A stretch of 64,000 nt of DNA, taken from the NCBI RefSeq assembly GCF_002804065.1, contig NZ_CP024955.1, forward strand, positions 1,054,001 through 1,118,000, written 5' to 3'. Below are positions 7,200 through 63,245 of the stretch, piece by piece. The notes beneath the pieces were generated by a model. That model had not been told where the DNA came from, did not search any database, and worked only from the letters and a program-made list of their open reading frames with translations. The position numbers were made by a program, and so were the translations under genes. The stretch's first letter is position 1. Every line of letters starts with the position of its first letter. The stretch comes from Kyrpidia spormannii. GTDB taxonomy: Bacteria; Bacillota; Bacilli; Kyrpidiales; Kyrpidiaceae.

Positions 7200-8207
7200 A
7201 TGAACGCCGCGTGGATCGGTCTCGCGCTGATCGTACTCGTCATCATCGCCTTTTTTGCAGTCCTGTTTACCTTTGTGCCGGTGATGTTGTGGATTTCCGC
7301 ATGGGCCGCCGGGGTCAGGGTGGGGATCTTTACGCTGGTCGGCATGCGGTTGCGCCGGGTCATTCCTTCTCGCATCGTGAATCCCTTGATCAAGGCGACA
7401 AAGGCCGGACTGAATCTTACGACGAATCAACTCGAAAGCCATTATCTCGCCGGCGGTAACGTGGACCGGGTGGTCAACGCCCTCATTGCGGCAGAGCGGG
7501 CCAACATCGCCCTCGGGTTTGCCCGGGCGGCGGCCATCGACCTGGCTGGACGGGATGTGCTCCAGGCCGTCCAAATGAGCGTCAACCCCCGGGTGATCGA
7601 AACGCCCATCGTGTCGGCGGTGGCCAAAGACGGCATTGAACTGAAAGTAAAAGCCCGGGTGACCGTGCGGGCCAACATAGACCGGTTGGTGGGCGGCGCC
7701 GGGGAGGAGACGATTCTCGCCCGGGTGGGGGAAGGGATTGTGACGACCATCGGTTCCGCCACTTCCCATAAGGACGTGCTGGAGAATCCGGACAAGATTT
7801 CGCGCACGGTGCTGGACAAAGGATTAGATGCCGGTACGGCGTTTGAGATTCTCTCCATCGACATCGCCGATGTCGACATCGGGAAAAATGTCGGCGCCCA
7901 GCTGCAAACGGACCAGGCGGAAGCGGATAAGCAGATTGCCCAGGCCAAGGCCGAGGAGCGCCGGGCGATGGCGGTGGCCCGGGAGCAGGAGATGCGGGCG
8001 TACGTTGAGGAGATGCGGGCGAAGGTGGTGGAGGCCGAATCCGAGGTGCCCCGGGCCATGGCCGAGGCGTTGCGGGAGGGCAAGCTCGGGGTCATGGATT
8101 ACATGCAGATGCAGAACATCGTGGCAGATACTCGGATGCGGGAATCCATTGCGAAATCTCCACCGCGTGATCTCCCGGGGCCCTTGTCGGGAGGGGAAAC
8201 GAAGTGA
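7200..8207 (+). CDS. floA: Flotillin-like protein FloA
   Basis: 335 residues, the usual FloA length. A hydrophobic N-terminal hairpin (about residues 5-45) anchors the protein at the inner membrane face. An SPFH domain follows, with [19 protein letters not shown] and [10 protein letters not shown]. The C-terminal coiled region is rich in Q, A, E and K, as in scaffold flotillins. FloA forms lipid-raft-like domains in Bacillota. The stop overlaps the start of the next gene by four bases (GTGA), which suggests coupling. Confidence 0.95.
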
Positions 8208-42164: not shown

Positions 42165-43487
42165 GTGAATGCAGAAAACACTGCTAACTACACCAAAGAC
42201 AAAGTTCGAGAACTCCAGAGGACCCTCTACCTTGCTGCGAAGGCGAATCCCAAACGTAGGTTTCATGCCCTGTACGACAAGGTATACAGAATCGATGTGC
42301 TGTGGGAAGCATGGAGACGAGTGAAGGCCAACCGGGGCAGTGCCGGGGTGGACGGCGTCACCATCCGTCATATCGTCCAGGGGTACGGCGAGATTCGGTT
42401 TGTGAGGGAGATCCAGGAGCTCCTCATGAAAGGTAAATACCGGCCGATGCCGGTGCGAAGGAAGGAGATACCCAAGGCGGACGGCAAGACCCGACCGCTT
42501 GGGATTCCGACCATTCGCGACCGGGTCGCACAGATGGCGGCAAAAATCGTGCTTGAACCCATCTTCGAAGCGGACTTCAAGGACTGCTCGTTTGGGTTCC
42601 GACCCAAGCGTAGCGCCAAAGGGGCCATCGATCGGATCCATCGGGCGGTGAACTGGGGAAAAGTGTACTGGGTGGTAGACGTGGATATCACGGGCTACTT
42701 CAACAACATCCCACACGACAAACTGCTCAAGCTCGTGGAGCAGAGGATCAGTGACAGGCGGGTGCTGAAGCTGATTCGGAAGTGGCTAAAAGCCGGATAC
42801 ATGGAAGAAGGCCTGTTCCATGAAACGGAGATCGGCAGCCCGCAGGGCGGGGTGATCTCGCCGCTGCTGGCGAACATCTACCTGAACTACCTGGACACGA
42901 TATGGGAGAAGCGCTTTACCCACTTGGGCACCCTGGTGCGGTACGCCGATGACCTGGTCATTCTGTGCGAGAAGAAGGCCCACGCACTGGAATCGGTGAA
43001 GGTGCTGAAAGCCGTGTTCAACAGGCTTGAGCTAAGCATAAACAAGGACAAATCTAAGCTGGTGGATCTGTGGATTGGCAAGCCAGGGTTCGATTTCCTC
43101 GGGTTCCATCACCAACGCATACCGGTACTCCGTAAGGGAGGCAAGGTAGCGCACGTTCTGCGCAGCTACCCGTCCAAGAAGGCCATGAAGAAGATGCGGG
43201 CCAAGGTACGGGAGGAGTTAGCGCCACGGAATCGGCTGTATTGGAGTCCAGCACAGGTGGTGGCAAACCTGAATCCCATCATCCAAGGATGGAGGAACTA
43301 TTATGGGAGTGTCGACCCAGGCATGAGCCGCAGGTTTCTGAGCAAGGTGGACTGGCACATCAATCGGCGACTGATTCTGTACTGGCGCAAGAAGCACAAA
43401 CGCAACCGGATGACGCCGACGGAAATCGTTCAGTTCTTCCGGTCCATTGGGCTGAAAACGGTAAGCGGGTATGGGCAGGGGCTATAA
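42165..43487 (+). CDS. ltrA: Group II intron reverse transcriptase/maturase
   Basis: 440 residues from GTG 42165. Reverse transcriptase blocks are visible: N-R-G-S-A-G-V-D-G-V-T, R-P-L-G-I-P-T-I-R-D-R, G-F-R-P-K-R-S-A, D-I-T-G-Y-F, P-Q-G-G-V-I-S-P-L-L-A-N, and the catalytic Y-A-D-D at 260-263. A maturase (domain X) region follows, with W-R-N-Y-Y-G. No HNH endonuclease domain is present at the C-terminus, so second-strand cleavage at new sites must be provided another way, as in endonuclease-lacking lineages. Confidence 0.96.
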   Translation: MNAENTANYTKDKVRELQRTLYLAAKANPKRRFHALYDKVYRIDVLWEAWRRVKANRGSAGVDGVTIRHIVQGYGEIRFVREIQELLMKGKYRPMPVRRKEIPKADGKTRPLGIPTIRDRVAQMAAKIVLEPIFEADFKDCSFGFRPKRSAKGAIDRIHRAVNWGKVYWVVDVDITGYFNNIPHDKLLKLVEQRISDRRVLKLIRKWLKAGYMEEGLFHETEIGSPQGGVISPLLANIYLNYLDTIWEKRFTHLGTLVRYADDLVILCEKKAHALESVKVLKAVFNRLELSINKDKSKLVDLWIGKPGFDFLGFHHQRIPVLRKGGKVAHVLRSYPSKKAMKKMRAKVREELAPRNRLYWSPAQVVANLNPIIQGWRNYYGSVDPGMSRRFLSKVDWHINRRLILYWRKKHKRNRMTPTEIVQFFRSIGLKTVSGYGQGL

Positions 43488-51604: not shown

Positions 51605-51785
51605 GGGGGCCCCTCCACAAAAGGGGGGGATCCTCCTGCCAAGAACGAGCACCAACGACGAAGGGGGGCTCCTCCAATCGAGGGATGATCCAGAAATGGA
51701 AAACAGGTCCGGCGTCCATATCCAAATTCAGGAATCCCAACACACTTTAAAAAGGGCCAAAAAAATGTCTTGACAATGGGGTCCA

Positions 51786-51975: not shown

Positions 51976-53919
51976 ATGGATAAGCAGAGACTTAGGGATC
52001 TGGAGTATCGCACTTATTACGCCAGTGGTCAGCACGACCTACTGAATGAGTTTTATCTTCCCTGTCTTAGGTTAGCAAGTAACTACGATAGAGCAGTCGG
52101 GTATTTTAATTCATCCATTCTAATACCGATCAAACCTGGATTGGAGGCTATTGTTAAGAGGAGTGGTAAGATACGCATTATGGCAGGTGCGCAATTGACA
52201 GAAGAAGATATTTCGGAAATACGTAAAGGATATCATGAACGAGAAATTCTGAATGCTCACCTCGACAAGATTTATACTGAGCTACAAGAACGTGTCGAGC
52301 ATGATCCTGACATAGCTAATCTATGTTGGTTGATTAAGAATGACATTTTGGATATTCGAATTTCAGTTCCTAATGTTGCTTATTTGGAGGAGCGAATTGG
52401 AGAGCTAATAGCACCTGGTATATTCCACGATAAGATTGGAATCATTTCAGATGCATCGGGAGATTATGTAGTCTTTCTTGGTTCGAATAATGAGTCTATA
52501 AATGGTTGGGCCAGAAACATAGAGTCATTTGAGGTATACTGTAGCTGGGATACATCTGTTTCAGCGCGAGCGTTCGAACGTCACAAGTATTTTGAACGTC
52601 TGTGGGAAGGCACTCTACCTGGCGTTCGAACTTTCGAGTTCCCGGATGCATATAAAAACAAACTTATAGCGATCGCTCCACCTGAATTCCAATGGGCATC
52701 AAAAGGCAGCTCGCAGTCTTGGTTTACATTTGTAAATAATAAATGGCGTCATCAGGAAGAGGCAATTGCTAAATTCTTGTCTTCGCGTAACGGTATCTTG
52801 GAGATGGCAACGGGCACAGGGAAGACAAAGACTGCCATCGGAATCTTGAACCAATTACACAGTAAGCAAGAAATTGAAAAGGCTATTGTTACTGTTCGTG
52901 GTACTGATTTATTGGATCAATGGAGCAGTCAGTTGGTCCTAGAAACAAATCTTGCGGTCTATCGGCATTACGAGAGTTTCAGGGACATAGCGAGATTTAT
53001 AGCAAGCTCGGGCAACAGTGTATTAGTTATATCAACTGATTTCTTGATAGAAAATATCCACTATATTGCCGGTGGGATAAATCCAGAAACCACAATCATT
53101 ATTTGCGATGAAATTCACGGTTTTGGTTCGAGTAGCACCGTCAAAGCGCTTAAAGGTCGAATCCGTCCGTTTAAATATCGGCTCGGATTAAGTGCAACAC
53201 CCGAGAGAGAGTATGACGAAGAAGGCAATAAGTTCATTATGGAAGAAATTGGGCCGGTTATCTTTGAATTTAGACTCGAAGATGCAATCAAGCGTGGGAT
53301 ACTTTGTGAGTTTGATTATTTTCCCCTATTATACGAGTTAACCGATGAGGATCGCGACAGAATTCATAGGCTGATTGCGGCTCACAACGCTCGGAAAAAG
53401 TCGGGAGAACTTGTTTCGGATGAGGAGCTCTACAGGCAATTAGCTCAGGTTCGAAAAAATTCATTAGCTAAAATACCTATCTTCGAGCGATTTATTAGGT
53501 CGAGGCACCACATTTTGGATCGTTGTATCATTTTTGTTGAGACCCATGAATTTGGAACACGGGTACAAGATCTATTGATTCGATACAAACCGGAATATCA
53601 CACTTATTTTGCCGAAGACGATCGGATAAATCTTCAAAGGTTCGCGAGGGGAGAGATCGATTGTTTGCTAACAAGCCAAAGGATTTCTGAAGGAATCGAC
53701 ATTCAGTCTGTGGACAACATCGTGCTATTTACGGCTGACCGATCAAGACTAACGACCATTCAGCGCATTGGTAGAAGCCTCCGAATAAATCCGAATGCTC
53801 CTGACAAGCGAGCCGGAGTTGTGGACTTCATATGTACTGACCGCAAGGACGATAACACGGACTTCCGACGAATGCAGTGGCTAAGTGAATTGTCGAAAAT
53901 TAGGTGGGAGGGTCGCTGA
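51976..53919 (+). CDS. PLD-nuclease/DEAD-box helicase, probable Dnd-linked restriction enzyme
   Basis: 647 residues from ATG 51976. The N-terminal ~230 residues form a phospholipase-D-like domain: R-A-V-G-Y-F-N-S-S, then His151 and Lys153 in I-F-H-D-K-I-G-I and G-S-N-N-E-S at 169-174. A superfamily-2 helicase follows: Walker A M-A-T-G-T-G-K-T near 277-284, D-E-I-H at 378-381, and motif VI Q-R-I-G-R-S-L-R at 596-603. This layout matches the restriction enzyme family found next to dnd genes, and it is the first gene of a four-gene operon 10 kb from dndBCDEA. A stand-alone defence nuclease is the alternative. Confidence 0.85.
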   Translation: MDKQRLRDLEYRTYYASGQHDLLNEFYLPCLRLASNYDRAVGYFNSSILIPIKPGLEAIVKRSGKIRIMAGAQLTEEDISEIRKGYHEREILNAHLDKIYTELQERVEHDPDIANLCWLIKNDILDIRISVPNVAYLEERIGELIAPGIFHDKIGIISDASGDYVVFLGSNNESINGWARNIESFEVYCSWDTSVSARAFERHKYFERLWEGTLPGVRTFEFPDAYKNKLIAIAPPEFQWASKGSSQSWFTFVNNKWRHQEEAIAKFLSSRNGILEMATGTGKTKTAIGILNQLHSKQEIEKAIVTVRGTDLLDQWSSQLVLETNLAVYRHYESFRDIARFIASSGNSVLVISTDFLIENIHYIAGGINPETTIIICDEIHGFGSSSTVKALKGRIRPFKYRLGLSATPEREYDEEGNKFIMEEIGPVIFEFRLEDAIKRGILCEFDYFPLLYELTDEDRDRIHRLIAAHNARKKSGELVSDEELYRQLAQVRKNSLAKIPIFERFIRSRHHILDRCIIFVETHEFGTRVQDLLIRYKPEYHTYFAEDDRINLQRFARGEIDCLLTSQRISEGIDIQSVDNIVLFTADRSRLTTIQRIGRSLRINPNAPDKRAGVVDFICTDRKDDNTDFRRMQWLSELSKIRWEGR

Positions 53920-54122
53920 TGAGTTTGGCATTTGATCTTCGTGCTGTTGTTGAACAGGTGTTAAGCGGCGCAGGACAATCTGAGGAATTTTGTTTTCGGT
54001 TATACAAGCTGTTGGAAAACTATATTGTAAATAATTGTACCGATGCTGATATCTTAGATGTTATAGAGAGTATTGCGACATGGGAAGACGAGGTGTCCAG
54101 AAATGCAAATTCGACTACATGA
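53919..54122 (+). CDS. Small protein of the putative restriction operon
   Basis: 67 residues from ATG 53919, overlapping the helicase stop (TGATG), with GTGGGAGG upstream. It is acidic and mostly helical in pattern (F-D-L-R-A-V-V-E-Q-V-L, E-F-C-F-R-L-Y-K-L-L-E-N-Y), with no recognised domain. It overlaps the next gene by 20 bases. The size and middle position suggest an adaptor between helicase and ATPase, as in three-component ABC systems; this is inference. Confidence 0.75.
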   Translation: MSLAFDLRAVVEQVLSGAGQSEEFCFRLYKLLENYIVNNCTDADILDVIESIATWEDEVSRNANSTT

Positions 54123-56037
54123 ATGGAGGTACACTAATATCCGAGGTATCGGATCGCTGGAAGTCAATTTGGAGAGACAGCCTAACGAAGTTTACCCAAT
54201 TACCCTTCTGATGATGCCAAATGGTACAGGTAAGACTACGACCATGAGCTTGTTACGAGCTATCTTTTCTGGTGAAGCTGAGCAGTGGAGTCCTCAACAG
54301 GTACGTGACTTTAGCCCTGGACCGGAATTTCAAAATGGTGAGTTTCGAGTAGCGTGGTCTGTGGCAGATGAAAACAAGATAAAAAGATATGTGGTATCGC
54401 TAAAGTTAGACTATAGTAATGGCATTGCTCGGTACATGACTTCTACAACTGGAGAAAGTGGCGGGTTGAGAGACGGTTGGGATCCTCCAAATTTGTTGAA
54501 ACCATTGTTGACGAAAGAGTTCGTAAGAATGTTTATATTTGATGGTGAGGTTGCTTCAGACATTCTAGACAACAAAAAGAACGACGCAGAAGGGGCTATT
54601 TCGGATCTATACCATCTAAATAAGTTGGATGAATTTAAAACAGAGGTAGACAAGTTGGTTAGTAGGAAGCAGCAAGAGAAGGAATCGAAGGGAACCTCCC
54701 ATCACATTTCTAGACTACGAAACAATGTTGACAGTCTAAGAGGTACTTTGCAACAGTTACAAACGAAGGAATCTAAGTTAAGAGAAGAACTTGAACAAAT
54801 GGAAGTACGAGTAAACGAGTTGGAGGACTATATCCAAGAGTATCTCTCTAAAAATCAAGAGTTAAAAAAAGAGGAGGAGAGAATTAAGAATGAACGGGAT
54901 GCTCTGAGCTTAGCTTTATCAAACACTGTGCAACAAACGCTAGAAATTTTGAGACAACCTCATTTAGTTAGTGAACTGTTTTCAAAAAGATTGAATTTCC
55001 TCGCTTCAAGTATGAGGGAGCTTAGGCTACCAAAATCGACTTCTAAGCAGTTTTTTGCAGAACTCGCTGAACAAAAATACTGTGTGTGCGGAAGGCCTAT
55101 TGGAGAACAAGAGAAGAAGGTAATTCTGACCCAAGCCGAAGAGTATTTAGGAGAAGATGAATTCGGCGTTATGAATGCTATAAAATCCTCCATAAATGAC
55201 CTGACTAAGCAAGAAGCGTTACTTCCGGATCTTGTAAATCGTCTATCCGGTTTACTTGAGCGCCGTGAAGAATTAGATAGACAATGGGTTCAAAATCGTA
55301 CGTGGTTGGAGAAATCAGGTGACGACCAAATAAGGGAATATATTGTCGAACAGACGCATCTAGAGGACAGAATCAAAGATATAAATCACGATTTAGAATT
55401 ATTAACTACAAACGATCCATCGAAACAGCACGGGAATGATTTGAATTGGAAAAACAACATACCGATTTGCCGGGACGAGTTGGAGGAGGCACAGCGCCGC
55501 CTTAGAGTGGTGACCGACACAGCTCGATTAGTGTCTCAAGCGAATCTCCTTAAGGACTACGTCGACTCTATTAAGCGTTTCGCGCTTGAAAAACTTAAAG
55601 AGAAAGTGAAGAATCGAACAAACAATAAGATTGATCAAATAATTAAAAACGATTCTCTCAGAATAAAGAGCATAAATCGATATCTAATGCTGGAAAATAA
55701 GTCCGGAGCAAGTGTCGGGCAAACACTTTCAATCGCTTATGCATTCCTGGCATCTCTTTTCGAAGAGTCCTCATATGAGTTCCCCTTTGTCGTGGATTCA
55801 CCAGCGAACTCGTTAGATCTTGAAGTTCGAAGACATGTTGCCCCTATACTTCCTCAAATATTTAAGCAGGTAGTTGTATTTCTTATATCAAGTGAACGAG
55901 AGGGCTTTGTAGAGAGCTTTTATGAAATGGAAGGGGGCGTACAGTTCCTTACCATATATCGTGGCAATAACGGAGAAGTGTTCAACTACGAGGGACGGGA
56001 GATATTCTCCAAATTTCAAACAACTGTTGAGGGGTGA
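54103..56037 (+). CDS. SMC/DndD-like AAA ATPase of the putative restriction operon
   Basis: 644 residues from ATG 54103, with GAGGTG upstream. Walker A M-P-N-G-T-G-K-T-T is at 38-46, long coiled coils cover about 185-270 and 380-480, and a C-x-C-G-x-P pair (Cys327, Cys329) sits at the arm tip like half a zinc hook. The degenerate signature S-G-A-S-V-G-Q is at 534-540 and Walker B F-V-V-D-S-P at 562-567. It resembles DndD/RecN-type ATPases but is clearly a different protein from DndD in this window. It probably senses or remodels DNA for the nuclease-helicase. Confidence 0.85.
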   Translation: MQIRLHEWRYTNIRGIGSLEVNLERQPNEVYPITLLMMPNGTGKTTTMSLLRAIFSGEAEQWSPQQVRDFSPGPEFQNGEFRVAWSVADENKIKRYVVSLKLDYSNGIARYMTSTTGESGGLRDGWDPPNLLKPLLTKEFVRMFIFDGEVASDILDNKKNDAEGAISDLYHLNKLDEFKTEVDKLVSRKQQEKESKGTSHHISRLRNNVDSLRGTLQQLQTKESKLREELEQMEVRVNELEDYIQEYLSKNQELKKEEERIKNERDALSLALSNTVQQTLEILRQPHLVSELFSKRLNFLASSMRELRLPKSTSKQFFAELAEQKYCVCGRPIGEQEKKVILTQAEEYLGEDEFGVMNAIKSSINDLTKQEALLPDLVNRLSGLLERREELDRQWVQNRTWLEKSGDDQIREYIVEQTHLEDRIKDINHDLELLTTNDPSKQHGNDLNWKNNIPICRDELEEAQRRLRVVTDTARLVSQANLLKDYVDSIKRFALEKLKEKVKNRTNNKIDQIIKNDSLRIKSINRYLMLENKSGASVGQTLSIAYAFLASLFEESSYEFPFVVDSPANSLDLEVRRHVAPILPQIFKQVVVFLISSEREGFVESFYEMEGGVQFLTIYRGNNGEVFNYEGREIFSKFQTTVEG

Positions 56038-56044
56038 AGATATT

Positions 56045-56530
56045 ATGACAGAGGGAACAACGGAAATTCCGCAAATTCGAATAGGTAGATTTAAGGAACC
56101 TAAAGGAGCAGAAGCATATTTTTCTCGACTTAAGTTAATTAGTAGCACACCGAAATTTGACAAGTATTATATGTGTCTTCTTCTCGGACTTCAGGAGCGC
56201 ATTCTCGGTGATGAAAGCGATGTTGAAAGTGGTTATTTTGTTGACTCATATCCGGGTCCGTATGCAACGCAAGCGGACATAATTGCAGCGTTGCTCATCG
56301 AGGCGGAGTTGGACAGGCAAGGACTTATGTTATCCGATGTTCAAGGCGTTGAAAGGTTAATGAGAAGAATTCTTAGTCCTTATTCTTCAACAAGGCTTAG
56401 TGTGGACGGTATAGATTTATTGAACCGTTATGCGGCAGGGGGGTTTAGTCTTCTTAGACAGGATATACCACCTACTAATGATGTGGCTACATTTTTTAAG
56501 CTGTACTGCAAGATGCTCATTGAAAGATGA
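56045..56530 (+). CDS. Hypothetical protein, last gene of the putative restriction operon
   Basis: 161 residues from ATG 56045, seven bases after the ATPase stop, with GAGGGGTGA upstream. No recognised domain; the pattern is mainly helical (Y-Y-M-C-L-L-L-G-L-Q-E-R, A-A-L-L-I-E-A-E-L-D-R-Q-G). It ends 50 bases before an IS256 remnant, so the operon may once have been longer. Its length would suit the middle component of an ABC-three-component system. Confidence 0.75.
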   Translation: MTEGTTEIPQIRIGRFKEPKGAEAYFSRLKLISSTPKFDKYYMCLLLGLQERILGDESDVESGYFVDSYPGPYATQADIIAALLIEAELDRQGLMLSDVQGVERLMRRILSPYSSTRLSVDGIDLLNRYAAGGFSLLRQDIPPTNDVATFFKLYCKMLIER

Positions 56531-56580
56531 ACCAAACTCGTACGTAGGCTGATTTGTTTCAGGAGGATGACGGAGTAGAG

Positions 56581-58021
56581 GTTGTCCCGGTCGTCGTGGA
56601 TTTTCGTGACGGCCTTTTTCTTCAATTTACGCGGTGATGGATTTGTTTTCCTGCTGTGGTTGCGGATGTACACATTTGTGTAATGCATCGAGGAGCAGAG
56701 GGATTTGGCGAAATCCCTTGACGGTCCTGAACTTTTTCTCCGCCTCCAAAAATCCTGCAGCCGCCCAGCGCAGCACCTGTTCCCCATTCTGCCAGCGCTT
56801 GACGTTCCGACTCACCATCCGCACCTTCTCATTGGCTGATTCGATCGCATTCGTCGAGCGCAGAGTTCCCCGAAGCAGTTCCGGAACTCCCAGCCGGATC
56901 ACGGTCACGGTCTCTTCCATCCCCTCGCGCAAACTGGCTGCTGCCCCTGGATACGCCTTCTCAAGTTGTGCCGCCAAGCGCCGCAGGGCCGCCAGTGCCT
57001 CTTTTTCGGTCTCCTGGCGCCAGGCCTCCCGCAATTGCCTCTTGACCCAATCTCGCTGTTTCTCCGGCAGATGCTCCAGGACATTGCGCTCCTTGTGCAC
57101 CTGACACCGCTGAACCAATGCCGTCTCTCCAAACACGTCCCGTACTGCGGCACGCAAAGCCTTACTCCGTCGATGACGACCAGGATCCCATCATCGGTTT
57201 TCAGTCCCCGGTCCACAAGATCGGTCAGCAGTCCTTTGCACACTGTCGCATTCTCTGTCGCTCCCTCCCAGACGCCCAGGATCTGCTTCTGTCCCCCTAC
57301 GTCAATCCCTAATGCCGCCACTACGGTGTGGTCCGCCATGACGATCCCGTCAATAACTAGCGCCACGTACCGGCGGTCGTCCAGGCGCCGCTGCATGAGT
57401 TTTTCGAGCAGCTTCTTCGTGGCGGCAATGAAACGCCGGCTAACGGCGCTCTTGCTCGTGCCGGAGGTTTCCACCTCGTTTCCGACCGGCTCAAGACCAA
57501 ACGCATAGTTTCGGGTCGACAAGCCATGAATCATCCGCTCCAACGCGGCCTGGGTCAGCAGCGTTGGATCCTGAAAAGCCTGGTAGGTCTCCAGCGGGAT
57601 TTCATGACCGTCGACGCTGCGTACCCGAACTTTTTCCACAGCCACCTTCCGGCCCCAAGCATCACGGAGCCCTTTTCCTTTCCGTGTCGCACAGCCTTGC
57701 GCTTTGGATTGTGTTTCCCTTTGGGGCCCACCAAAGCTTCGACTTCCTCTCGCATCATGAGTTGAATCACTCGAAGCCCGGTTTGAACCGCCAAGGCCAT
57801 GAGTCCCTCTTTCGCGCTCTCCATCACGTCCAGTAGCGACAGTTGGAGGGTGAACTGCTGAGAAGGATCTAGTGTCGAAAACAGGCTCTGGTCATTTCTC
57901 ACAATTTGATGTACCCTTGATTTCATAGGTGGCGTTCTCCTTTCTTGTTGTGCCCAATCCCGTTATACCAAACGGGTTCAGGAGACCGCCACCTTCAAAT
58001 TTCCACGAAACCTGGGACAAC
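56581..58021 (-). mobile_element. IS256-family element, copy C (full length, decayed)
   Basis: Ends GTTGTCCCGGTCGTCGTGGA (56581) and, inverted, GTTGTCCCAGGTTTCGTGGA (from 58021) are imperfect inverted repeats. No 8-9-bp target duplication is visible. It lies between the restriction operon and the bacteriocin cluster. Confidence 0.88.
56627..57926 (-). pseudogene. IS256-family transposase, copy C, two frameshifts
   Basis: Nearly complete mutator-type transposase from ATG 57926. One-base deletions relative to copies A and B occur near 57650 (the G-S-V-M-L-G-G-R segment) and near 57165 (the V-I-D-G-S-K segment). These split it into three frames. The catalytic region and S-T-N-A-I-E-S are otherwise intact. 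Confidence 0.9.
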
Positions 58022-58045
58022 GCCAAGCGCCCAGCAGCCCCCCCA

Positions 58046-58330
58046 TCAACGCACTAGAAAATAAGAGACAAGGTCTATCAACATGGCAAGTGTGATGAAT
58101 ACCTTGATCCGCCGTACCCAAAGATTAGAAACGGATTTCGAGACGTTGATGAGGATCCAATAGAACACAACGAATATACCCGCAACGGTGATTTTGTACA
58201 TCATCGGATGGTCGTGCAGGAAAAGCATTTGTCCCAAAAACGTGTTTGAGCCAATTTTGAGTCCAGCTGCCACACAACCAAGAGCAACCAGACCTACACC
58301 AATTGCGGCCAACGTGCGATAATCCTGCAC
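58046..58330 (-). CDS. Small membrane protein, candidate bacteriocin immunity/accessory protein
   Basis: 94 residues from GTG 58330, chosen because GAGGAGG lies eight bases upstream; an ATG at 58423 has no such site. About three hydrophobic segments are present (A-A-I-G-V-G-L-V-A-L-G-C-V-A, I-T-V-A-G-I-F-V-V-F-Y-W-I-L, F-I-T-L-A-M-L-I-D-L-V-S). It is last in the minus-strand cluster after the ABC ATPase. Circular bacteriocin clusters usually encode a small cationic membrane immunity protein in this position, so that role is inferred. The IS256 copy C begins 24 bases beyond its stop. Confidence 0.7.
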   Translation of the reverse strand: MQDYRTLAAIGVGLVALGCVAAGLKIGSNTFLGQMLFLHDHPMMYKITVAGIFVVFYWILINVSKSVSNLWVRRIKVFITLAMLIDLVSYFLVR

Positions 58331-58459
58331 GGAATTGTACCTCCTCAAGTAAAAAATAATCTCTCTCCTTAGCGTGCAACCTTTTGAGTAATGGCCTTGA
58401 AACTGCTTCTGCCGCTTGTTCATAGACAGTGGTTCTGATAAGGCCTGCTTTATGCCTTA

Positions 58460-59116
58460 TCAAATGGGTTGCTGCGCCAACCGTCCATTTTCCAAAAGCA
58501 TCGTCCGAGTGGCAATCTGAGTGCTAACATCACGTACATGGGAGGTAAAAAGCACGGCGGCACCGTTTTCTGCACGTGTTCGAACCATCTCTATAGCCAC
58601 ATTTAATGAAGCTTCGTCCAGTGGGGCAAATGGTTCATCAAGAAGAAACACTCGGGCCTCGCGGCCGAACATACAAGCCCAGAACAATTTATATCGCATG
58701 CCTAACGAATAGTCCTGAACAAGGATATCCAACGCGTCGTTTAACCGAAATCTCTCCGCAGTCTGAGCAAAGTAAGGACAAAACTGATCTTCAGGCATAG
58801 CAAAGAGATGCCGAAAAAAACGAACGTTCTCCTTGCCGGTCAGGTAATCAAATAAATACGGGTTTGCCTGCAAATATACGAGATCAGCCAGCCATTCTTT
58901 TCGCTTCGGGCCGATAATAGGCTGTGAATGATACAGGACTTCTCCCTCCTTGGGCATCAATAGCTGGGCAATCAAGCGAAAAAGAGTGGTTTTTCCGCTG
59001 CCATTTGCCCCTTGTATCCAGAGAATATCCCCTTCCTGGACATCAAGAGAAACATTCTGCAGCACTGGTTGATTGGGTTCGTATTCAAAAGAGACCCCCC
59101 GTAGTTGCAACATCAT
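58460..59116 (-). CDS. ABC transporter ATPase of the circular bacteriocin cluster
   Basis: 218 residues from ATG 59116, which has AGGGGGCG upstream; a longer opening from 59209 overlaps the gene before. Walker A G-A-N-G-S-G-K-T is at 36-43, Walker B F-L-L-D-E-P ends with Glu161, and D-loop A-P-L-D follows. The signature is an unusual Y-S-L-G-M-R-Y-K (136-143) instead of L-S-G-G-Q. It would power export of the mature peptide, or self-protection, together with the membrane protein encoded upstream. Confidence 0.92.
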   Translation of the reverse strand: MMLQLRGVSFEYEPNQPVLQNVSLDVQEGDILWIQGANGSGKTTLFRLIAQLLMPKEGEVLYHSQPIIGPKRKEWLADLVYLQANPYLFDYLTGKENVRFFRHLFAMPEDQFCPYFAQTAERFRLNDALDILVQDYSLGMRYKLFWACMFGREARVFLLDEPFAPLDEASLNVAIEMVRTRAENGAAVLFTSHVRDVSTQIATRTMLLENGRLAQQPI

Positions 59117-59174
59117 GTGCCACGCGCCCCCTGATAGCGAAAGTTTCTCCTCCGCTTTAAATCGATTCAACACC

Positions 59175-61382
59175 TTATAAGCCGAACTGGGCTTCCATGA
59201 ACGCTGCAATCACAAACAGTATGACAGCGATCACAATCATAGGAACCACTTCTTGAGTTACCATAGAACGCAATGCTTGCAACGACCGTGTCCGTTTCGC
59301 ATGCAGGATTGCAGACCATACCATAAAGGGTATGACAGCGGACAACAGCGTTGCAGGAATCTCGAATATGGCGTGAGGAAGAAAAGCCTTCCAGATGAGA
59401 TCCAGGCGATCCTTTTGTTCCAGGATTTCAACTGCTATACCGGCGACAGCACCATTCAACCCGAGCAGAAGCAAACTGACCACACCGTAACTTAAACTAC
59501 CCAGCACAATCATTAACGCCATCGTCTCCAAGTTATGTACGAGATAGGTTAGAGCGGTTATCCCAGGATTACGTATTTCTGGCGGGGTCCACTTTCGCTC
59601 AACCAGCATCCCAATCAAGAAGGAACTTATATATATACCTATCATGATGAAAATCTTGCTCTTTTGCGCAAGCCATATGGAACCCATTCGACCGTATAGA
59701 TGGTCTCCCAAAGCAGAACTATAAGTGTAGCGTTCCCCTTTTGGCAAAATAACTGCTAGTAAACCAGCCGATAACAGCATCACCCCCAGAAATGTCGAGT
59801 ATTCTAAAGTAGCATTCAGGTGATGATCATTGAACAAATATGCCGTGAGAAATAACAATACAAACACGGTAGAAAGCAACCGCCTGGGGACTTGGTACAA
59901 AAATTGGAAGAATTTGGTTTCCATCGTAACCAATTGGATAGAAAATATATTTGGATAGTCAACTCGGTTCAAAACGAACATCCATGCACCCGAGAGCACG
60001 GTCACAAGGAGATAAATGAGCCACAGCCCGATCAGCCCGGTTATGGCGTGCAACCATTCGAATCCTACCGAGAAGGCACCGATCAGGAAAATCAGACTCA
60101 GCTCAAGGAGCAACGGGAAGCCCAGTACTCCCAGTAACGCGATTTTGGCAATCTTCATTTGCCTTACGCTCGTATTTGGCGAGAGGTTTAATAAATCAAC
60201 TTGTCGCAGTTCACTGGAGGGGTAAAGAATTGGAAAACTCCACAGCATAAACCACAGGCTTTGGTAAACCGCATATAATGAAATGGCCCAGAAAATCAGC
60301 ACAAACGCTGACAGATCCTTTAGAGACCAGGATACTACCGAAACTGCCACCGCTGAACTGATAGATGGAGGCAACCATAATTCCGTCCGCAGTGGAAACT
60401 GGGTCCGATTTTGGAACCGTTGTATCCACAATAAATCTCGCCAGATAAACGGATTCCGAGGGAATAAATGCCGTGCCAACAGATGATACAACCTGAACAG
60501 AACATCGGGATCACCGACAGTCACCACATCGCTCTGAGCCGCCCTCATTCTGTAACGAATGCCAACTACGATGTACAAAGCAAGGAAAGTGCAGAAAAAC
60601 GCAACTGATAGCCAGCCAAGCCATTTGTGGTGAATAAACATCTCCCAGATGCCGGATAGGGAACTGCTAAACCTGGCTCTCAAAGCTTGTGGAAGAATCA
60701 ACCATGCATGATCGGACCGAAAAATAGATACGGAAATAGGATGATCCGCAAAATCCGTCAAGACTTGATCGGAAACAAACCACAACAAACCTGTTACGAC
60801 TGTCAAACTGATTATGTACAAGACCGGAGGCATTCGATAAGGATTCGCTGCTGGCCCATACACATGACGGTACAACGTCCAAAGATAAACTCCGGAAACA
60901 ACTGCAATCCATAAAATTGCGATCCCGAATCCCAAAACCAGATTTCCAGTAACGTCCAGAATAATTGCAACCGACACAAATTGAAGCCCAATATGACGTA
61001 TCCAGAAACACGCCGTTTCGCCCAGCAGCCACGTTATCGTCAAGTCTTCATCAGGCCAAGGTGATTGTTTGAGGATATCCCGCAACGGATCATTCCTTAG
61101 TCGCTCCACATCCCTTCTAGCCATAGTACTTGGCATGTACAAATTAAACAACAGTGCAAGACCGGCTAGAACCCACCAACCTGGAATGCCACGGGATCCG
61201 AGTACGAGGTATGCAATCATGACAAAAACCGAGTTTTGCAGCACAACGGCGACTGTCCAAACTACCCAAGCCGGTACAGCGATACCAAAGATCTCTTTGA
61301 GCTTTAACACCACAGTGGCAAATTCCTGGCGCGTCTGATTCAGGACCATTATCCGTACGATTTCCCAGCGCACCCACTTCAT
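59175..61382 (-). CDS. Large membrane protein: permease-like region fused to a SpoIIM/DUF95 domain
   Basis: 735 residues from ATG 61382, with AAGGGGG six bases upstream; an earlier start at 61433 has no site. The first ~550 residues contain many membrane helices and resemble an ABC-2-type permease. The last ~190 residues are a SpoIIM/DUF95 domain, recognised by F-L-P-H-A-I-F-E-I-P-A-T-L and G-L-N-G-A-V-A-G-I. DUF95 proteins are a constant part of circular bacteriocin clusters, needed for secretion, maturation and immunity; there the other membrane protein is normally a separate gene. The fusion is what I see; its role is inferred. Confidence 0.85.
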   Translation of the reverse strand: MKWVRWEIVRIMVLNQTRQEFATVVLKLKEIFGIAVPAWVVWTVAVVLQNSVFVMIAYLVLGSRGIPGWWVLAGLALLFNLYMPSTMARRDVERLRNDPLRDILKQSPWPDEDLTITWLLGETACFWIRHIGLQFVSVAIILDVTGNLVLGFGIAILWIAVVSGVYLWTLYRHVYGPAANPYRMPPVLYIISLTVVTGLLWFVSDQVLTDFADHPISVSIFRSDHAWLILPQALRARFSSSLSGIWEMFIHHKWLGWLSVAFFCTFLALYIVVGIRYRMRAAQSDVVTVGDPDVLFRLYHLLARHLFPRNPFIWRDLLWIQRFQNRTQFPLRTELWLPPSISSAVAVSVVSWSLKDLSAFVLIFWAISLYAVYQSLWFMLWSFPILYPSSELRQVDLLNLSPNTSVRQMKIAKIALLGVLGFPLLLELSLIFLIGAFSVGFEWLHAITGLIGLWLIYLLVTVLSGAWMFVLNRVDYPNIFSIQLVTMETKFFQFLYQVPRRLLSTVFVLLFLTAYLFNDHHLNATLEYSTFLGVMLLSAGLLAVILPKGERYTYSSALGDHLYGRMGSIWLAQKSKIFIMIGIYISSFLIGMLVERKWTPPEIRNPGITALTYLVHNLETMALMIVLGSLSYGVVSLLLLGLNGAVAGIAVEILEQKDRLDLIWKAFLPHAIFEIPATLLSAVIPFMVWSAILHAKRTRSLQALRSMVTQEVVPMIVIAVILFVIAAFMEAQFGL

Positions 61383-61465
61383 AGGTGCCCCCTTATCCAA
61401 AGTTAACCGAGCACTCTTCTCTTGCAACATCACTTTTTGTTAGGCTGCCTCCCCGAGTAACTGAT

Positions 61466-61546
61466 TCGGCAGGTTGCGTCCGACAGTCAGGCAGTTCGAC
61501 GTCCCTGTTGCACGTCTGGCTACCCCACCGTCGGACAAGCTGCCGA
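61466..61546 (-). promoter_or_regulatory. Long stem-loop between bacteriocin precursor and downstream genes
   Basis: TCGGCAGGTTGCGTCCGAC (61466-61484) pairs with GTCGGACAAGCTGCCGA (61530-61546) with small internal mismatches. There is no T run after it on the minus strand. Such a structure could partly stop transcription or protect the precursor mRNA, so that the peptide is made in excess over its export genes. Confidence 0.6.
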
Positions 61547-61565
61547 GCCTACTTCCATGAGATTA

Positions 61566-61787
61566 CTACCACGCTATTGCTTGAAGCCAAAGATTCCTCT
61601 TGAGGTAGTTCAATACGACCGCAACAATGTAGTCTGCTGAGGCCGTCCAAACCGATAGGCTACCCCCGGATAGAATGGTAGTAATAATACTCATCGTGAT
61701 AATCGCCCAACCAAACTGGTTAATCAACGAAACAATCTGTTGAGCAACCCAATTGCCAACACCTAGAAAACCCATCAGATCAAACAC
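61566..61787 (-). CDS. Circular bacteriocin precursor (circularin A/uberolysin family)
   Basis: 73 residues from GTG 61787, with GAGGTGG eight bases upstream; starts at 61799 (77 aa) and 61775 are alternatives. The C-terminal half carries the family pattern S-I-I-T-T-I-L-S-G-G-S-L then A-S-A-D-Y-I, N-Y-L-K-R-N-L and Q-A-I-A-W. It aligns without gaps to my recollection of uberolysin (S-I-I-S-T-V-I-S-A-G-A-L, A-S-A-D-F-I, N-Y-I-S-R-N-L, Q-A-V-I-W). By that alignment the leader is three residues (M-F-D) and the mature ring is 70 residues, joining Leu4 to the final Trp. The peptide would form a helical bundle that permeabilises Gram-positive membranes. Confidence 0.9.
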   Translation of the reverse strand: MFDLMGFLGVGNWVAQQIVSLINQFGWAIITMSIITTILSGGSLSVWTASADYIVAVVLNYLKRNLWLQAIAW

Positions 61788-61823
61788 CAAACCACCCACC
61801 TCGCTGAAATTTGTCCCTACCTA

Positions 61824-63112
61824 GTAGATCGTTTCCCTTGTTTCGACAGCATTTGCAATCGACATATGATAGGGTAAGGTGACGATACGTGTAGAAATGA
61901 GGGAGCAGAATGCCGGGGCGTGTCTATCGAAAGTTGCATCCAGAAATTACACTGACGGAAGAGGAACGAATGCAGTTGGAACGCATTCGCCAATCCCGCT
62001 CGGAAAGTGTTCGCCATGTCCAAAGAGCGAGCATCCTTCTCCTGTGTGCGGACGGACAGAACAAGGCAGCCATTGCACGGGACTTGGGCATGAGCCTCGT
62101 TGCGGTCAACGGAACAATCCGCCGCGCTCGGAAAGTGGGCGTCTTGCAAGCCTTGGATGATCTGCCCCGCTCCGGTCATCCGGAGGTCATCACCCCGGAA
62201 GCGAAGGCTTGGCTGATCTCCTTGGCTTGCCAAAAGCCGACGGCCCTTGGATACCCGCACGAAGTGTGGACGTACAGCCTGCTGGCGCAACATGTCCGTG
62301 CACATTGTGAGGAGGCGGGACACCCGTCCTTGGCTCGCCTGGCGAAAGGAACCATCTCAAAAATTCTGAGAGCACAGGACATCCACCCTCACCGCATCGA
62401 ATACTATCTGGAAAAACGCGACCCTGAATTTGACGCCAAGATGGCTGAGGTACTGGCGGTCTACCAAGAGGTGGAGATCTTACGGGAGGCCGGCGACCCG
62501 CAAGCTCCTCTGAAAGCCATTCTGTCATATGACGAAAAGCCAGGCATCCAGGCCATCGCGAACACGGCACCTGACCGACTCCCTAAACCGGGAGTGGGAG
62601 GAACGCTTCAGCGGGATCACGAATACGTCCGGTTGGGGACGCTCAGTGTTCTCAGCGGGATTGATCTTGTAACGGGCCATGTGCATCATTCGTTGTGCGA
62701 ACGACACCGGAGTGCGGAGTTCATTGAGTTTTTGAAGGTGGTCGATGCGTACTATCCGCCCGGTGTAGAGATCCACATCATTTTGGATAACCACTCTGCT
62801 CATACGTCCAAGCAGACCCGAAGCTATTTGGAAAGCGTGCCGGGCCGTTTTACATTTGTGTTCACACCGAAACACGGTTCTTGGCTCAACATCATCGAAT
62901 CTTTTTTCGCCCAAATGAGCCGGACTGTTCTGCGGCACATCCGGGTGAACTCGAAGGAGGAACTGCGGGAACGGATTGAACAGTACTTGGATGAACTCAA
63001 CAAACACCCCGTTCCATTCCGATGGCGCTATGGGCTTCAAATGGTCAGAGAGTGACAAAACCTTTCAAGCATGTCGAATTATGCGGTGAACAGTTTTTCG
63101 GAAACGATCTAC
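61824..63112 (+). mobile_element. IS630-family insertion sequence with TA target duplication
   Basis: Perfect terminal inverted repeats GTAGATCGTTTCC (61824-61836) and GGAAACGATCTAC (63100-63112) are flanked on both sides by TA (61822-61823 and 63113-63114). That is the target duplication typical of IS630/mariner elements. Length is 1,289 bp. It appears intact and recent. Its left end is 36 bases from the precursor start codon of the bacteriocin. Confidence 0.95.
61910..63055 (+). CDS. IS630-family transposase
   Basis: 381 residues from ATG 61910. An N-terminal helix-turn-helix (A-A-I-A-R-D-L-G-M-S-L-V-A-V) is followed by the DDE catalytic domain: D in S-Y-D-E-K-P-G, D in I-L-D-N-H-S-A-H, and E in S-W-L-N-I-I-E-S-F-F. 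The frame is uninterrupted, so it is probably active. Confidence 0.96.
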   Translation: MPGRVYRKLHPEITLTEEERMQLERIRQSRSESVRHVQRASILLLCADGQNKAAIARDLGMSLVAVNGTIRRARKVGVLQALDDLPRSGHPEVITPEAKAWLISLACQKPTALGYPHEVWTYSLLAQHVRAHCEEAGHPSLARLAKGTISKILRAQDIHPHRIEYYLEKRDPEFDAKMAEVLAVYQEVEILREAGDPQAPLKAILSYDEKPGIQAIANTAPDRLPKPGVGGTLQRDHEYVRLGTLSVLSGIDLVTGHVHHSLCERHRSAEFIEFLKVVDAYYPPGVEIHIILDNHSAHTSKQTRSYLESVPGRFTFVFTPKHGSWLNIIESFFAQMSRTVLRHIRVNSKEELRERIEQYLDELNKHPVPFRWRYGLQMVRE

Positions 63113-63150
63113 TAGTGGTGCCCCTCGCGAAAATAATCGAGAGATAGTAC

Positions 63151-63245
63151 AGATATGGAAAACAGGACCGGCGCTCAAATTCAAACTGAGGAATCCTTTA
63201 CCGCAAAAGGAAAAATGGTACAAAATTTTTTGCCAACGGGCCATC
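63151..63245 (+). repeat. Remnant of an IS3-family right end
   Basis: GATATGGAAAACAGG, CCGGCG, AAATTCA and AGGAATCC recur in the same order as in the 3' part of the IS3 element (51683-51786). The copy has diverged and carries no transposase. It lies on the far side of the IS630, upstream of the bacteriocin precursor. Confidence 0.55.

Follow-up and report, generated by a model that had tools for sequence, protein, structure and literature searches.

In circularin A of Clostridium beijerinckii, the cirABCDE cluster encodes a precursor (A), three proteins for maturation and secretion (BCD) and an immunity protein (E) (PMC10028692). A SpoIIM domain is present in all described circular bacteriocin clusters, for which ATPase and immunity roles have been described as well, and results from knock-outs point to joint action of several membrane proteins in maturation (PMC6131525). 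Typically, B is a membrane protein of ~550 to 600 aa and SpoIIM a separate protein (C) of ~170 to 200 aa; in one unfused cluster (L044), the B and C genes are adjacent, with overlapping frames. For Kyrpidia spormannii EA-1, a thermophilic, hydrogen-oxidizing spore former with a genome of 3,352,175 bp and 58.7% GC (PMC5773743), a head-to-tail peptide was listed in silico by Teber and Asakawa in 2024, with amylocyclicin (100%), circularin (45.07%), and uberolysin (37.84%) among the matches of their set and with the EA-1 cluster as the only one said to be without a SpoIIM homologue (PMC10931772).

The window, i.e., the whole 64,000-nucleotide stretch of EA-1 DNA analyzed here, contains four minus-strand genes between positions 58046 and 61787, in the order A, BC, D, E. 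Gene order and range are those given in a preliminary description of the locus, and the sequence also agrees with its view of a circular bacteriocin cluster in a GC-rich spore former. A SpoIIM domain, an ATPase, and a small cationic membrane protein beside the precursor are features common to known clusters, and we consider it very probable that the locus was acquired horizontally and encodes a head-to-tail cyclized (circular) bacteriocin of the circularin A/uberolysin type, with the roles proposed below for A, BC, D, and E. The cluster and its immediate surroundings comprise the following features.

56577..58024, minus strand: IS256/Mutator-family insertion sequence with a broken transposase frame (PF00872)
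58046..58330, minus strand: E, small cationic membrane protein of 94 aa, candidate immunity protein (phmmer match to Alicyclobacillus mali)
58460..59116, minus strand: D, ABC transporter ATPase of ~218 aa, best start ATG 59116 (PF00005, 7.1e-24)
59175..61382, minus strand: BC, fused membrane protein of 735 aa, best start ATG 61382 (PF01944, profile comparison)
61466..61546, minus strand: long stem-loop, almost perfectly paired, in the A-BC intergenic region (folding)
61566..61787, minus strand: A, circular bacteriocin precursor of 73 aa, GTG start (PF09221, TIGR03651, A. mali orthologue)
61824..63112, plus strand: IS630-family insertion sequence (transposase, 5.9e-65)

For leader removal, ring closure, export, immunity, and killing, we infer the following course. 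Gene A would yield the 73-aa precursor, from which a three-residue leader (MFD) would be removed, after which L1 would be joined to W70 to give an all-helical, tryptophan-rich, weakly cationic (+1) ring of ~7680 Da that would permeabilize the membranes of competing Gram-positive bacteria. BC, combining a B-type membrane protein and SpoIIM/DUF95 in one chain, would form a membrane complex with the ATPase D for maturation and export, and E would serve as the immunity protein.

Membership of the precursor in the family is clear from the two curated models, with scores far above their cut-offs in both cases: 4.5e-15 and 56 bits (cut-off, 23.6) for PF09221 (Bacteriocin_IId) and 5.1e-14 and 52.4 bits (cut-off, 30.7) for TIGR03651 (circularin A/uberolysin). 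The preliminary description had asked for just such a search after aligning the peptide to uberolysin without gaps, and the motifs on which it had drawn (SIITTILS, ASADYI, NYLKRNL, and a terminal tryptophan) are all found in the precursor, as are its extra tryptophans, five in all. The ungapped alignment likewise held up, with 28 identities over a 70-residue core, ~18 standard deviations above shuffles of the peptide, and the sequence agrees with a predicted mature core of 70 residues (L1 to W70). Identity counts against uberolysin, circularin A, and garvicin ML serve as leads, and the family-model scores are the test. The start codon at GTG 61787 is preceded, at 8 nt, by AGGTGG; an alternative GTG at 61799 would yield 77 aa. 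The 73-aa form was preferred because the upstream GTG overlaps the ribosome-binding sequence and because the A. mali orthologue begins with an ATG at the corresponding site. In the PDB, a family profile built from twelve precursors, A among them, matched AS-48 at 1.1e-22, enterocin NKR-5-3B at 6e-13, and carnocyclin A at 3e-4; A alone as the query retrieved AS-48 at 0.004. An AlphaFold model of the precursor was unusable for a fold search (pLDDT 60, two sequences).

The predicted ring has a pI of 8.5, a GRAVY value of 0.99, a cyclic average mass of 7680.0 Da, 18 Da below the ~7698 Da of the linear mature form, and a monoisotopic mass of ~7675.1 Da. Characterized group I circular bacteriocins, a subgroup of high pI, carry net charges of +3 to +6 (PMC10028692). 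With its predicted net charge of +1, the ring lies below that range, and we have therefore filed the peptide by sequence family and not by biochemical subgroup. Ring closure is invisible in sequence and the leader spans only ~3 residues, so that A might be read as a membrane-active bacteriocin that stays uncyclized (linear or leaderless), or as an uncyclized small membrane protein other than a bacteriocin. We consider this highly improbable, as the curated circular-bacteriocin models cover the full core, including the terminal aromatic residue, and as the locus does contain SpoIIM, a domain shared by every circular bacteriocin cluster described. With five conserved tryptophans, a low charge, and a producer from hot soil, the peptide is a candidate heat-stable antibacterial, although it is one among hundreds of predicted peptides in a well-populated class.

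Where the preliminary description had seen one membrane/DUF95 protein, the DUF95 part stood (PF01944, 1.7e-19), but it had missed that, judging from the profile comparisons, two proteins encoded separately in other clusters are fused in it. BC has ~12 hydrophobic segments and consists of a B-type N-terminal region (residues ~1 to 560) and a C-terminal SpoIIM/DUF95 region (residues ~580 to 731). In profile-profile comparisons, the C-terminal part matched separate SpoIIM proteins with an E value of 1.5e-16 and the N-terminal part matched B proteins with an E value of 3e-5 (72% probability, 131 columns), while each of five unrelated membrane proteins used as controls for the latter comparison remained below 1% probability. 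Outside these 131 columns, the B-type link of BC is bridged by further fused proteins, of ~737 aa, that form a second set and come from another Bacilli family; this set matched BC (3e-11), B (1e-12 over 480 columns), and C (2.5e-17), its SpoIIM domains exceed the Pfam cut-off, and it adjoins precursors at two loci (L051 and L052). With the B-like region of BC and D (PF00005), both the membrane component and the ABC ATPase expected for the family are present. A read-through artifact joining two genes was ruled out for BC, since the frame is continuous and the junction can be aligned in two Alicyclobacillus species. An AlphaFold model of BC was unusable for a fold search (pLDDT 44, three sequences).

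Of the 399 Bacilli genomes sampled, only 3 contain a full-length close homologue of BC, namely, those of EA-1, A. mali, and A. sendaiensis. A contig scan with BC alone gave no match, and an alignment-based scan recovered two Alicyclobacillus loci; no plasmid-encoded relative was present in the plasmid collection searched. In the second Bacilli family (f25), B-SpoIIM fusions were seen at L043, L049, L051, L052, and L059; one genome of this family (G027) carries up to three precursor genes, and the fusion copy in another (G073) contains an in-frame stop. A limited literature search returned no description of a B-SpoIIM fusion. Its occurrence in nature suggests that both proteins act as one unit, and we tentatively propose, at close to even chances, that the fusion, in Kyrpidia/Alicyclobacillus as well as in the second Bacilli family, is the hallmark of a machinery variant in which the two proteins form a fixed 1:1 unit. 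If this were true, studies of leader cleavage and ring closure, and of the proteins responsible for each, could start more simply from the fused protein. The fusion would reduce the maturation set to BC and D, with immunity in addition, and the thermophilic source of these proteins may be of use for expression and structural studies.

The ATPase D matched its A. mali orthologue with an E value of 8e-64. For E, the best start is GTG 58330, located behind GAGGAGG, and a longer open reading frame begins at ATG 58423; the protein has three hydrophobic segments, and a pI of 10.25 was calculated for the 125-aa reading frame. No family model matched E in HMM searches. A 96-aa A. mali protein encoded in the same place was matched by phmmer (5.4e-15), and E, whose size, charge, and hydrophobic segments would suit an immunity protein, is a candidate for that role. 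Truncation of E by the neighboring IS256-type element was ruled out, as the ends of E and of the A. mali protein match.

Conservation of the whole cluster was observed in A. mali NBRC 102425 (L041/L068), where A, BC, D, and E occur in the same order as in EA-1. The precursor of this strain is 58% identical to that of EA-1 without gaps, with all five tryptophans conserved, and its BC protein (33% identical) is likewise fused. Unlike in EA-1, the A. mali precursor gene is free of IS insertion, and A and BC are separated by 61 nt instead of 183 nt. We found no experimental study of the A. mali cluster in the literature. A different situation was encountered in A. sendaiensis NBRC 100866, which aligns with A. 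mali on both flanks of a ~480-bp gap that removes the precursor (L067, ~7960 to 8000, versus 7450 to 7970 of L068 in A. mali); no precursor was found elsewhere in this draft genome. BC and D are both intact in A. sendaiensis (dN/dS relative to A. mali, ~0.24 and ~0.18, respectively), and E is present on a different contig. As judged from this alignment, A. sendaiensis is a case of natural precursor loss with retention of the export and immunity genes. The preliminary description had counted a relative with the other genes and without the precursor against its own reading; such a relative does exist, but, because the loss is a clean deletion relative to the precursor-bearing A. mali locus, it does not overturn that reading.

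The same observation could be taken to mean that BC, D, and E mainly constitute an immunity and export module that is able to persist without a bacteriocin, the precursor being dispensable, an idea in keeping with the partial immunity conferred by ABC components in enterocin NKR-5-3B (PMC6131525). We regard this as unlikely: the precursor is intact and conserved in both EA-1 and A. mali, the argument draws on one draft genome with E on another contig, and the dN/dS values average over the whole divergence and may therefore predate the loss of the precursor. The bacteriocin cluster that we favor was probably acquired by EA-1, given that two other genomes of the genus contain no homologue of the precursor or of BC (one of them showing a weak, partial SpoIIM match) and that the cluster has a GC content of 47%, versus 58.7% for the genome.

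Both ends of the cluster are bordered by insertion sequences. The IS630-family element, inserted at a CTAG target with TA duplicated on both sides and with GTAGATCGTTTCC at both ends, terminates 36 bp ahead of the start codon of A, sparing the ribosome-binding site and displacing the native upstream DNA to beyond position 63114. A second genomic copy is 100% identical, and the insertion is recent. Just outside the element, positions 63117 to 63197 of the window have ~80% identical copies at two other genomic sites, one of them within the window (51676 to 51737). The IS256-type element lies 21 bp past the stop codon of E and has eight full-length copies elsewhere (~99% identical). Other features of this mobile-element-rich region include a group II intron reverse transcriptase/maturase (42165 to 43487, plus strand; PF00078, PF08388) and, beside the cluster, an AT-rich island (51976 to 56530, plus strand) with matches to models of phosphorothioation-linked phage defense, namely, a helicase to PbeA (3e-206) and an AAA ATPase to PbeC/DndD-type models (2e-28).

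Since the IS630 insertion severed the genes from their native upstream region, their expression in EA-1 is doubtful. We rate it as somewhat below even that this strain carries the cluster as a silent remnant, intact yet untranscribed since the insertion and kept only because that event was recent. The position of the IS630 element and its identity to another copy fit such a scenario, as do the second insertion sequence past E and the lack of precursor and BC homologues in the two other genomes of the genus; on the other hand, all four frames are intact, and a weak promoter-like site near the end of the IS630 element (61895 to 61866; 9 of 12 positions) aims into the cluster, although sites like it are about as frequent as expected by chance. 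Silence of this kind would be compatible with our explanation of the encoded products as a circular bacteriocin and its machinery. A further potential layer of expression control is found between A and BC, where the 193-nt intergenic region folds at -73 kcal/mol (z score, -3.2), a stability reached by none of 200 shuffled sequences. The stem-loop in this region occurs once in the genome, which ruled out a repeated element, and Rfam gave no match around the cluster, which ruled out a known riboswitch or leader. It is a candidate RNA element that may adjust A and BC transcripts relative to each other or may stabilize the A message.

With respect to the published in silico work, 28 identities over 74 columns correspond to 37.84%, and the peptide listed by Teber and Asakawa is thus most likely the same as A. 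The suggestion in the preliminary description that the peptide was probably undescribed was therefore only partly right. The published statement that the EA-1 cluster lacks a SpoIIM gene (PMC10931772) is wrong, going by the PF01944 match, and is corrected here: SpoIIM resides in the C-terminal domain of BC. What appears to be new is this domain, the fusion, the IS context, and the comparison with the two Alicyclobacillus species. For K. tusciae, Zhao and Kuipers (2016) gave a count of three head-to-tail clusters (PMC5100339); a complete genome of the same genus, presumably that of K. tusciae, contained no TIGR03651 match, and these three clusters are therefore probably something else.

Taken as a whole, the locus is best read as a circular bacteriocin cluster of the usual short-leader kind, with the uncommon trait of a fused maturation protein. 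With uberolysin of Streptococcus uberis, the Kyrpidia precursor shares the family model, a gap-free 70-residue core, a terminal tryptophan, and a leader predicted to be short, whereas it differs in the number of tryptophans (five versus one), the net charge (+1 versus +3), and the leader itself (MFD versus MDILLE). With circularin A, it shares a leader, predicted in Kyrpidia, of three residues starting with MF and an aromatic C terminus (PMC10028692), which is tryptophan in Kyrpidia and tyrosine in circularin A, while the B and C proteins, separate in the circularin A cluster, are one protein in Kyrpidia.
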